DNA from: Methanoculleus frigidifontis
Lineage (GTDB): Archaea > Halobacteriota > Methanomicrobia > Methanomicrobiales > Methanoculleaceae
Length of the DNA: 64,000 nucleotides
Assembly: GCF_030464345.1 (NCBI RefSeq)
Contig: NZ_VCYH01000006.1
Location: forward strand, 124,001 to 188,000
Direction: 5' to 3'
Under the pieces are notes generated by a model, which ran no database searches, was not told the origin of the DNA, and saw nothing but the letters and a program-made list of their open reading frames with translations. Every line of letters starts with the position of its first letter. The first letter of the stretch is position 1. Below are positions 8,794 to 13,508 of the stretch, one piece after another. Made by a program: the position numbers and the translations under genes.

Positions 8794-8858
8794 CCACCCG
8801 GCAGTAGGGTGCAGTATCGCCGGGGTGGGACGTTCCGCCCCGCCAGGAGGCAACCGGA

Positions 8859-11800
8859 GTGAGCGAGAAGACACCACGGGAATGCCGCGGCATCTGCGGC
8901 ATCTGCGCCGCGGGGTGCGGCGTCGTCGTCACCTACGACGACGAAGGGCGGATTGCGGACGTGCGGGCGGACGAGGATTCGGAGCTTGGGATCATCTGCA
9001 AACTCGGCGAGCGGACACCCGAGATCGTCTACTCAAAAGACCGGGTGCTCTACCCCCTGAAGAGAACCGGGCCGAAGGGCACGTATGCATTCGAACGGAT
9101 ATCGTGGGACGAGGCCTACGATATCATCGTGCAGCAGCTCCTCGCGATAAAGGAGCAGCATGGGCCGGAAGCGGCGGCCATCTACACGGGGTCAGGGAGT
9201 TTCGAGCTCTCGCACTGCGATGTCTTCCAGCCTAAAGACGTCGCGGTCTCGTCCGCATCGAGCGTGCTGTTTCCCTACGGCTCGCCGAATACGATGGGTG
9301 TCGGGGCGCTCTGCTATGTCGCGTTCGCCATGATAGCGCCGCACGTCACGATGGGGCGGCTGTACATCAACACCTACTCGGACTTTGAGAACGCAGACCT
9401 CATCCTGGTCTGGGGGACGAATCCGGCCACCGACTTTCCGCCCCGAAACCTCCAGAAGATCCTGGAGGCGCGCTCGCGCGGCGCCGAGGTGGTCGTCATC
9501 GATCCGCGACGGACGAAGACGGTCGATCTCGCCGATGCCGAGTGGGTCCCGATCCGCCCCGGGACCGACGGTGCACTCGCTCTCGGGATCTGCAACGTCC
9601 TCATCGAGGAGGAACTCTACGACGAGGAGTTCGTCCGCAGCTGGACACATGGGTTTGAGGAGTTTGCGACCTACGTCCAGCACTTCCGGCCCGAGGTCGT
9701 CGAGGAGATCACCGGGGTGCCTGCAGAGACCGTCACTGCCCTCGCCCGGCGGATCGCGCAGGCGGACGGCGCGACATGGGCGATGTACACCGGGCTTGAG
9801 TACAGCGATTCTGGCGTGCAGGCGATCCGCGCCGCTCTGGTGCTCTGGGCGCTTGCGGGCCAGCTGGACGTCCCGGGCGGCCGGTGTCTTACGATGCTGG
9901 AGAATACGTTCCCGATCAACCGCTCGGAGTATCTCGAGAACCCTGACCTGAACCGGGCGATCGGCGTCGACCGGTTCCCGGTCTATACGGCCTACCGCAA
10001 AGAGGCGCATCCGATCGCGCTTCCCGAGTCGGTTCTGCTCGGAAAGCCCTATGAAATCCGTGCCCTCATCATCCAGGCCGGGCACCTCCTGATCTCCTGG
10101 CCGCAGACGCCCGTCTGGCGGGAGACGCTGAAGAACCTGGATTTTCTGGTCTGTGTCGACCGGCATCTCACCGCAGACGCGGCCTATGCCGATATTGTCC
10201 TTCCCGCAACGACGATGTACGAGCGGGAGTCGTACATGACCTACGGTCCGATCTTCCGGATCCGGGAGCGGATCATCGAGCCGCAGGGCGAAGCTCGGCA
10301 CGATGTCTTCATCATGGCCGAGCTCGCCCGCCGCCTCGGCTACGGGCATCTCTATCCGCAGGACGAAGAGGCGATGCTCCGGCACGTCCTGAAGGGATCC
10401 GGGTACAGCCTCGAGGACGTCCGGGCGGCCGGCGGCATGGTGCAGTCGCCGACGGTCATGATGCAGTACCGCAAGTGGGAGAAAGGGCTTCTGCGGCCGG
10501 ACGGGAGGCCGGGGTTCGACACTCCGACCGGCAAGTTCGAGATCTGGTCGACGGTCCTCGAAGAGCACGGCTACGACCCGCTTCCGGTCTACACGGAGCC
10601 GCAGGAGAGCCCGGTCTCGCAGCCGGAGCGTGCAAAGGAGTATCCGCTGATCTTCAACTCCGGTGCCCGGGTGACGACCGATTTCCACGCGCAGCATCAC
10701 GGCATCAAAAGCCTCCTCGCCGAGCGACCCGAACCGACGGTGACGCTCAACACCCGGGATGCAGCCGCCCGCGGCATCGCGCACGGCGATCGTGTCGTTG
10801 TCAGGACGGTGCGGGGGCAGATCCCGCTGCGCGCCATCGTCACCAACGATATCGTTCCGGGCGCCGTCGAGGCGAACATGGGCGGCGGCTGTCACGTCGG
10901 CCCGAAGGCGTGGCAGGAGGCGAACGTCAACGAGCTGACCGACCTGCAGCGCTACGACCCGATATCCGGTTTTCCTATCTACAAAGTCCTCCTCTGCGAC
11001 GTCGTGCGGGCGGACGATGCGGCAGGTGGGACGGTCGCCATCGGTTCGGGCGAGATCGAGGCCGCTGCAGACCTCTCTGCTCTTCCTTCTTCGTCCGAGA
11101 CGGAGCGGATCTACCTCGACAACAATGCCACGACGCCGGTCGATCCCGATGTCTGGGAAGCGATGGTCGCGTTCGGGGAGAAGAACTTCGGGAACCCGTC
11201 GAGCATCTACCGGGAGGGGAAGGCGGCGAAGAGGGCGGTGGAGGATGCCCGGCGCACCCTCGCCCGGCTGCTCCACTGCACGGCAAGACGGGTTATCTTT
11301 ACCGGGTGCTGCACCGAGGCGAACAACTTCCTGATCAAAGGCCTGGCGTTTGCCACGTGGGGGAGTGAGCGAAAGCAGATCATCACTTCATCAGTCGAAC
11401 ACTCGTCGGTGCTCGAGCCGATACGGTGGCTTGCGAAGTTTGGCTACCAGGTGACGGAGCTCGGTGTGGACGGGACGGGCAGGGTCAGGCCGCAGGATCT
11501 TGCGGCGGCGATCACGCCGGATACCCTGCTCGTCAGCGTCATGACGGCGAACAACGAGACCGGTTCGATCCAGCCGATCCCCGAGCTCGTGCGGATCGCG
11601 CACGAGCAGGGGGCACTCTTCCACACGGATGCCACCCAGGCCATCGGAAAGATCCCGGTCGATGTACAGGAGATGGACGTCGACTTTCTCACCCTCTCCG
11701 GGCATAAGATCTACGGGCCGAAAGGGGTCGGCGCACTCTACATCCGGCACGGTGTCCGGCTTGATCCGCTGCTGCATGGCGGCGAGCAGGAGCGGGGGGT

Positions 11801-12263
11801 GCGTGCCGGCACCGAGAACGTCCTCGGCATCGTCGGTCTCGGACGTGCCGCCGAGCTCGCCGGCCGGCACCTTGAGCGGATGGATGAGGTGCAGCGGCTG
11901 CGCGACCGTCTTGAGATTGGGATCCGCGAGATCGTGCCGGAGGCGCGGTTGAACGGGCACCCGACCGAGCGCCTGGCGAACACCCTGAATATGGTTCTCC
12001 CCGGATACCGGGGCGAATCGGTCGTGCTCGCCCTCGACCAGGAGGGGATCGGCATATCCTCCGGCTCGGCATGCCATTCGGGTTCGCCGTCGCCGTCGCA
12101 CGTCCTGCTCGCTATGGGCATCTCCGAAGAGGACGTCCATTGCTCCGTCCGCATATCGCTCGGTGCCCGGACGACCGAAGGGGAGATCGACCGGACGCTC
12201 GCAGCGATGGACGACGTTCTGCACAACCGGACAGAGACCGTCCGGTTCGTCACCTGCCGGTAG
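8859..12263 (+). CDS. Molybdopterin oxidoreductase fused to a cysteine desulfurase
   Basis: An 1134-residue two-enzyme fusion. Residues 1 to about 715 form a Mo/W-bis-pyranopterin oxidoreductase: [4Fe-4S] cysteines at 13, 16, 20 and 47, a probable metal-ligand Cys152 in MGVGALCYVAF, and pterin-binding segments (LILVWGTNPATDFPPRN, VVVIDPRRTKTVDLADAEWV). Residues about 749-1134 form a complete NifS/IscS-type PLP desulfurase starting at RIYLDNNATTP, with PLP Lys950 in LSGHKIYGPKG and persulfide Cys1072 in SSGSACHSG. A 30-residue Ala/Gly/Ser linker separates them. The frame is uninterrupted and GTG 8859 has a good AGGAGG. No FdhB, electron-carrier subunit or FdhD gene is adjacent. The substrate is unknown; the desulfurase domain could sulfurate the metal cofactor as IscS does for formate dehydrogenase, or the protein could act in sulfur metabolism. 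Confidence 0.88.
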   Translation: MSEKTPRECRGICGICAAGCGVVVTYDDEGRIADVRADEDSELGIICKLGERTPEIVYSKDRVLYPLKRTGPKGTYAFERISWDEAYDIIVQQLLAIKEQHGPEAAAIYTGSGSFELSHCDVFQPKDVAVSSASSVLFPYGSPNTMGVGALCYVAFAMIAPHVTMGRLYINTYSDFENADLILVWGTNPATDFPPRNLQKILEARSRGAEVVVIDPRRTKTVDLADAEWVPIRPGTDGALALGICNVLIEEELYDEEFVRSWTHGFEEFATYVQHFRPEVVEEITGVPAETVTALARRIAQADGATWAMYTGLEYSDSGVQAIRAALVLWALAGQLDVPGGRCLTMLENTFPINRSEYLENPDLNRAIGVDRFPVYTAYRKEAHPIALPESVLLGKPYEIRALIIQAGHLLISWPQTPVWRETLKNLDFLVCVDRHLTADAAYADIVLPATTMYERESYMTYGPIFRIRERIIEPQGEARHDVFIMAELARRLGYGHLYPQDEEAMLRHVLKGSGYSLEDVRAAGGMVQSPTVMMQYRKWEKGLLRPDGRPGFDTPTGKFEIWSTVLEEHGYDPLPVYTEPQESPVSQPERAKEYPLIFNSGARVTTDFHAQHHGIKSLLAERPEPTVTLNTRDAAARGIAHGDRVVVRTVRGQIPLRAIVTNDIVPGAVEANMGGGCHVGPKAWQEANVNELTDLQRYDPISGFPIYKVLLCDVVRADDAAGGTVAIGSGEIEAAADLSALPSSSETERIYLDNNATTPVDPDVWEAMVAFGEKNFGNPSSIYREGKAAKRAVEDARRTLARLLHCTARRVIFTGCCTEANNFLIKGLAFATWGSERKQIITSSVEHSSVLEPIRWLAKFGYQVTELGVDGTGRVRPQDLAAAITPDTLLVSVMTANNETGSIQPIPELVRIAHEQGALFHTDATQAIGKIPVDVQEMDVDFLTLSGHKIYGPKGVGALYIRHGVRLDPLLHGGEQERGVRAGTENVLGIVGLGRAAELAGRHLERMDEVQRLRDRLEIGIREIVPEARLNGHPTERLANTLNMVLPGYRGESVVLALDQEGIGISSGSACHSGSPSPSHVLLAMGISEEDVHCSVRISLGARTTEGEIDRTLAAMDDVLHNRTETVRFVTCR

Positions 12264-12290
12264 CGTGCCGGCCCTTCTCCACAGAATCTA

Positions 12291-12300
12291 TTTATATCTT
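12291..12300 (+). promoter_or_regulatory. TATA box upstream of the EgtD-like gene
   Basis: TTTATATCTT lies about 26 bases before ATG 12321, the spacing expected if transcription starts at or next to that ATG. It therefore supports the long form of the gene as a leaderless message. Confidence 0.55.
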
Positions 12301-12320
12301 CATCGGGATCGACATGGGCT

Positions 12321-13508
12321 ATGACGCATTTCGACCAGGCATGGCAGAGACTCCGCAGCACCGGATCGCCGGACTGCTCCTCCGCCTCTCCCTGCCCCAG
12401 GCAGAAACGTCTGTTTCCGGAGACTGCGGATCTCCTGGATCTGCCGTCGCGCTCTGCCCTACCCCGAGTCAGGGGCGGCACCGAAACCGGGTATGGCGGG
12501 GAGGCTGTGGCGGCGGATCCGATCGGGCTCTTCGATTCGGCGAGGCTTGAGATCCGCAATTACCACATGACGTCGTACGCCGAGGAGCTCGCCCGCGATA
12601 TCAGAGCAGGGCTGTCGTCCGGCCAGAAACAGATCCCCAGCAAATACTTCTATGATGAGCGGGGGTCGCGGCTCTTCGAAGAGATATGCCGCCTCCCCGA
12701 ATACTATCCCACCCGGACGGAGATGGCAATCCTTGAGGAGCATGCCGGCGCGATCATGGAGCCGTTCACCGCCGGCGACCTCGTGGAGATGGGATCGGGT
12801 GCGAACTGGAAGATCTGCCGGCTCCTGGATGCGGCCGCGCAGCCGCACGGTGCCGGTATCCGCTATGTCCCGCTGGATGTGAGTGAATCCGCACTTCAGG
12901 CAGCCGCCGAAGAGCTGATCAGGATGTACGGAGGGCTGGAGGTGCTCGGTATCGTGGCAGACTTCACCAGGAACCTCGATCGTATCCCGGATGATGCCGA
13001 TCGTCTCATCACCCTCTTCGGCGGCACCATCGGGAACTTTACCGATGCTGAAGCGGCGGAGCTGCTTGAAGGAGTTTCCGCCCTCATGCGGCGCGGTGAT
13101 CGGTTCCTGATCGGGATGGATACCGTCAAGGATACAGATCTCCTCGAGGCTGCATACAACGATGCACGGGGCATCACCGCCGCATTTAATAAGAATGTCC
13201 TGAACGTTGTCAACCGCGAGCTCTGTGCCACGTTCGATCTCGACCTCTTCGATCACGTCGCCTTTTACAATGAAACCTCAGACCAGATCGAGATGCACCT
13301 CGCAGCACGCCAGGCGATGGCCGTCGAGATCGCCGCTCTCGATATGGTGGTGGAGTTTGAGAATGGCGAGACCATCCACACCGAGATCTCCCGCAAGTTC
13401 TCGCGGGAGCGTGCGATCCGCATCTTCGAGGATGCCGGCCTTGCACCGCAGCGCTGGTTTACCGATGAAAATGGGTGGTTTTCACTCGTGGAGCTCGTCC
13501 GGCGCTGA
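12321..13508 (+). CDS. EgtD-like histidine N-alpha-methyltransferase family protein
   Basis: SAM-dependent methyltransferase of the EgtD family, whose characterised members make hercynine (trimethylhistidine) for ergothioneine. The core is clear from ELARDIRAGL through PSKYFYDERGSRLFEEICRL and PEYYPTRTEMAILEEH, then the SAM motif LVEMGSGANWKI and LFGGTIGNFTDAEAAELLEG. From ATG 12567 the protein would be 313 residues, the usual size. From ATG 12321 it is 395, with an unmatched N-terminal tail rich in Ser, Pro and Arg. I give 12321 because the TATA box is placed for a leaderless start there; 12507 (GTG) and 12567 remain possible. No egtB-like sulfoxide synthase is visible nearby, so the substrate may not be histidine. 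Confidence 0.8.
   Translation: MTHFDQAWQRLRSTGSPDCSSASPCPRQKRLFPETADLLDLPSRSALPRVRGGTETGYGGEAVAADPIGLFDSARLEIRNYHMTSYAEELARDIRAGLSSGQKQIPSKYFYDERGSRLFEEICRLPEYYPTRTEMAILEEHAGAIMEPFTAGDLVEMGSGANWKICRLLDAAAQPHGAGIRYVPLDVSESALQAAAEELIRMYGGLEVLGIVADFTRNLDRIPDDADRLITLFGGTIGNFTDAEAAELLEGVSALMRRGDRFLIGMDTVKDTDLLEAAYNDARGITAAFNKNVLNVVNRELCATFDLDLFDHVAFYNETSDQIEMHLAARQAMAVEIAALDMVVEFENGETIHTEISRKFSRERAIRIFEDAGLAPQRWFTDENGWFSLVELVRR

Follow-up and report, generated by a model that had tools for sequence, protein, structure and literature searches.

Within the window, the 64,000-nucleotide stretch of Methanoculleus frigidifontis DNA analysed here, positions 8859-12263 of the forward strand form a single, uninterrupted reading frame of 1134 codons, initiated by GTG and preceded by a ribosome-binding site, AGGAGG (8845-8850), located in the sequence and by pattern search. 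Pfam matches in the 1134-residue protein, all far above their cut-offs, are Molybdopterin (residues 62-491), Molydop_binding (601-710) and Aminotran_5 (751-1112). The protein consists of an N-terminal metallopterin module (residues ~1-718, 8859-11012), assigned by Pfam and with acetylene hydratase 2e7z as its best solved relative; a linker (residues ~719-749, 11013-11105), which reads in frame and has low model confidence; and a C-terminal NifS/IscS-type cysteine desulfurase module (residues ~750-1134, 11106-12260), assigned by Pfam Aminotran_5, NCBIfam NifS/IscS models and matches in the PDB and in the fold search. An earlier, sequence-only reading of this DNA had described the product as a molybdopterin oxidoreductase and a cysteine desulfurase in one polypeptide. 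The intact frame and the Pfam domains of both halves bear this out.

That reading had also proposed a search for the same fusion and its neighbours. An uninterrupted fusion of this kind is also encoded by another genome of the genus (84% identity), by further Methanomicrobiales (~73-76%) and by members of many bacterial phyla; where a gene for EgtD is on the same contig, it adjoins the fusion as a rule. Bacterial fusions with 56-66% identity come from Zixibacteria, Gemmatimonadota, Desulfobacterota, Calditrichota, Aminicenantes, Nitrospirota, Myxococcota, Pseudomonadota, Geobacteraceae isolates and others. The linker region (~11000-11100) is free of stops and frameshifts in the window sequence. 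Since the uninterrupted fusion recurs across the genus, the order and many bacterial phyla, it is neither a chance read-through nor a misassembly, and an assembly artefact or a frameshift in the linker could be ruled out by this wide conservation.

Comparison of the N-terminal half with solved structures gave the highest score for acetylene hydratase (2e7z, 266 bits), followed by thiosulfate reductase (205 bits) and formate dehydrogenase H (175 bits). In the fold search, 2e7z was the sole Mo/W enzyme among the 50 matches listed. Acetylene hydratase from Pelobacter/Syntrophotalea acetylenica and the N-terminal half have in common the fold, the 4Fe4S and bis-MGD sites and the cysteine metal ligand, but are only ~25% identical in the fold alignment; 2e7z also lacks a fused desulfurase and catalyses a hydration, which is a non-redox reaction. 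The C-terminal half shares with NifS/IscS cysteine desulfurases the PLP lysine, the persulfide cysteine loop and the fold (~38-43% identity in the fold alignment). Whereas those enzymes are free-standing and serve many acceptors, the desulfurase of the window is fused and carries an extra C-terminal cysteine. An AlphaFold2 model of the fusion (pLDDT 71.4, pTM 0.54) was unreliable at residues 107-154 (including Cys120 and Cys152), 428-483, 1071-1076 and 1132-1134. Because the model is poor around the key cysteines, no distances were drawn from it and the fold matches alone were used.

The same arrangement is known from CaMES, the metallopterin-dependent ergothioneine synthase (MES) of Caldithrix abyssi, a protein of 1136 residues with an acetylene-hydratase-like module and a NifS/IscS module (PMC9516567). 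A Calditrichota protein in our set (L132) is also 1136 residues long and has nine residues at exactly the numbers published for CaMES. On the strength of this agreement in length and in all nine residue numbers, it was used as a stand-in for CaMES. The window protein is 63.7% identical to it over 1132 positions, and all nine residues are matched (C13, C16, C20, C47, C152, K950, C1072, C1095 and C1133) and are invariant in 35/35 full-length fusions. Cys13, Cys16, Cys20 and Cys47 (8895-8999) are predicted 4Fe4S ligands, equivalent to CaMES Cys14, Cys17, Cys21 and Cys48. Cys152 (9312-9314) is the predicted Mo/W ligand and aligns with CaMES Cys153, of which the C153S substitution abolishes activity. 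By position and conservation, Lys950 (11706-11708) corresponds to the PLP lysine, CaMES Lys952, and Cys1072 (12072-12074) to the desulfurase persulfide cysteine, CaMES Cys1074. The four cluster ligands, Cys152, Lys950 and Cys1072 had been placed correctly by the sequence-only reading. It had overlooked Cys1133 (12255-12257), the penultimate residue, which by the same evidence corresponds to the second relay cysteine, CaMES Cys1135. CaMES requires Cys153, Lys952, Cys1074 and Cys1135 for activity, but not Cys1097, the equivalent of C1095 of the window protein (PMC9516567).

Two further cysteines, Cys120 (9216-9218) and Cys713 (10995-10997), are invariant in 35/35 MES sequences. In the four nearest unfused relatives, Cys120 is replaced by K or N and Cys713 is kept. 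From this pattern of conservation, Cys120 is a candidate for an extra sulfur-relay or active-site residue. In the main text of the MES paper (PMC9516567), no counterpart of Cys120 is mentioned and Cys713 is not discussed.

The gene directly following the fusion on the forward strand, 12321-13508, had escaped the sequence-only reading. It encodes EgtD, the L-histidine N-alpha-methyltransferase (TIGR03438, 365 bits against an equivalog cut-off of 290.9; PF10017 match), with a conserved core at ~12588-13490 and an uncertain start. By eye, a TATA-box-like tttatatct is present in the interval 12280-12330, at ~12290, ~27 bases before the first ATG of EgtD, and would fit a separate leaderless EgtD transcript.

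EgtD was found on the same contig as the fusion in ~31 distinct loci, mostly immediately upstream or downstream. Ten fusion genomes without an adjacent EgtD were searched in full. Six of them encode EgtD, and in the remaining four (L043, L048, L052 and L065) it was undetected; its absence there may reflect assembly incompleteness, uptake of trimethylhistidine or the use of another substrate. In one of the six (L055), EgtD lies on the same contig at a distance of ~3.6 kb from the fusion; the other five encode it outside the fusion locus. Across 232 genomes of Methanomicrobiales, MES is present in 11, EgtD above cut-off in 11, and both in 10 (hypergeometric 1.2e-15, a value that ignores shared ancestry). 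In the sole MES genome of the order without EgtD (G069), the contig ends right behind the MES gene. In the one genome with EgtD and without MES (G053), no trace of MES was found near EgtD. An EanB gene in its place was considered and rejected, as the site is occupied by a gene for a MATE transporter and by a methyltransferase frame that is unrelated. In this genome, as in the window, a HemK-type methyltransferase gene precedes EgtD (here L131:7867-9078) by a few kb; the MATE transporter gene lies between the two in G053.

EanB (rhodanese-type) and EgtB (an iron sulfoxide synthase) belong to pathways that lead to the same product downstream of EgtD, but their folds and sulfur chemistry are unrelated to those of MES. 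No match to EgtB was found in the host genome. The host has rhodanese-domain proteins, some in frames of 460-467 residues, and given these an EanB-type enzyme may also be present.

Taken as a whole, the window protein is a further complete member of the known MES family: a bis-MGD module related to acetylene hydratase and a C-terminal cysteine desulfurase occur in one chain, and the genome encodes EgtD, adjoining MES. It resembles CaMES in domain order, in length (1134 versus 1136 residues), in the cluster, ligand, PLP and relay residues and in its association with EgtD. It differs in that its host is a methane-producing archaeon of the Methanomicrobiales, in being ~64% identical to the L132 stand-in, and in that its activity is predicted. 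In a tree of the N-terminal module, archaeal MES proteins form one clade (98/98); the root is too weak to tell whether transfer ran from bacteria to archaea or the other way. The 2022 MES paper counted 55 genomes, and the window genome may be among them. From the open frame, the Pfam and NCBIfam matches, the family-wide residue conservation and the identity to the Calditrichota protein, it is almost certain that the predicted function of the gene is that of a metallopterin-dependent ergothioneine synthase, forming ergothioneine without oxygen.

In the proposed mechanism, EgtD would trimethylate histidine to give trimethylhistidine, the substrate of MES. The PLP-dependent desulfurase, through Lys950, would convert L-cysteine to alanine, with the sulfur retained on Cys1072 as a persulfide. 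This sulfur would pass to Cys1133 and then to the bis-MGD Mo/W centre at Cys152 of the same chain, from where the metal-bound sulfur would be delivered to the imidazole C2 of trimethylhistidine, so that ergothioneine is formed in an oxygen-free reaction. Sulfur transfer in CaMES is strictly intramolecular, with the desulfurase supplying the metallopterin site of its own polypeptide, and four MES homologues, one of them euryarchaeal (EaMES), produced ergothioneine in E. coli (PMC9516567). Because the residues concerned are completely conserved, we infer that the steps from desulfurase to ring, shown or proposed for CaMES, apply to the window protein; the Mo=S transfer mechanism is tentative in the MES paper too (PMC9516567). 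The sequence-only reading had left the natural partner of the protein unclear for want of electron-transfer subunits. The partner is the adjoining EgtD, and the absence of such subunits would be accounted for by the proposed cycle, because a net transfer of sulfane sulfur to trimethylhistidine needs no external electron carrier.

It had been suggested earlier, by reference to the activation of formate dehydrogenase, that a built-in desulfurase would let the enzyme sulfurate its own metal site, or that reductase-made sulfide would feed cluster assembly. On this view, the protein would be a formate dehydrogenase or a sulfur/selenate reductase whose fused desulfurase matures the metal site once only. 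The NCBIfam models for Fdh-alpha and PhsA do match the N-terminal half, but far below their cut-offs (298 versus 666 bits and 266 versus 694 bits, respectively), which also leaves the supply of sulfide to cluster assembly unsupported. The nearest solved relative is acetylene hydratase, no electron-transfer subunits are encoded nearby, and EgtD both adjoins the gene and is co-inherited with it. Homologues of FdhD are located elsewhere in the host genome, one of them ~2-3 kb from an Fdh-like gene, so the window protein is not needed for the maturation of formate dehydrogenase. In CaMES, the desulfurase is required for turnover and not for activation (PMC9516567). A formate dehydrogenase or reductase matured in this way is therefore extremely improbable. 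What stands of the suggestion, by homology with CaMES, is that the desulfurase sulfurates the metal site of its own chain, in the role of a donor at each turnover for ergothioneine and not in the maturation of formate dehydrogenase.

A MES homologue might instead have come to sulfurate or selenate a different heterocycle in this lineage, as the four fusion genomes without detectable EgtD could indicate, and according to the MES paper heterocycles may be sulfurated by other Mo enzymes whose function is unassigned (PMC9516567). However, EgtD adjoins MES in the window and, within the archaeal clade, stands beside MES in almost all members for which flanking sequence exists, and the euryarchaeal homologue made ergothioneine in E. 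coli. We consider a different heterocycle very unlikely for the window protein, and the assignment as an ergothioneine synthase is preferred.

Unfused metallopterin proteins ~50% identical to the N-terminal module of MES, with the metal-ligand cysteine present, were observed in Desulfobacterota and relatives (L075, L077 and L079). These loci contain no desulfurase and no EgtD, and each protein is encoded directly behind a SAM methyltransferase (with a Trm112p-like domain in L077 and L079); possibly they transfer sulfur to another methylated heterocycle. In Anaerolineae (L076:6376-16354), an unfused MES-like metallopterin protein (54%) is flanked by two MTTB-family methyltransferase genes, with a DAO/GCV_T demethylase-like gene nearby, which suggests that a quaternary amine is broken down there, perhaps trimethylhistidine or ergothioneine itself. 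We consider it a speculative and rather unlikely combination that Cys120 is an added persulfide-relay station and that the unfused proteins of L075, L076, L077 and L079 are heterocycle sulfur-transfer or ergothioneine-desulfurating enzymes of undescribed pathways.

A second desulfurase fusion was noticed in the host, on a contig of ~376 kb (C1, L007:1495-4155). Its translation, read by eye, has a PAPS-reductase-like N-terminal half and a SufS-type desulfurase, and an FdhD-like gene adjoins it. It resembles a CysH-SufS fusion, as reported for Methanomicrobiales (PMC11237513).

If the prediction is true, the locus places oxygen-independent ergothioneine synthesis in the Methanomicrobiales. These archaea are strict anaerobes, in which a use of ergothioneine as an antioxidant is not obvious. 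For the family as a whole, Cys120 and Cys713 are candidate parts of the sulfur path, and MES and EgtD travel together, both in archaea and in many phyla of bacteria.
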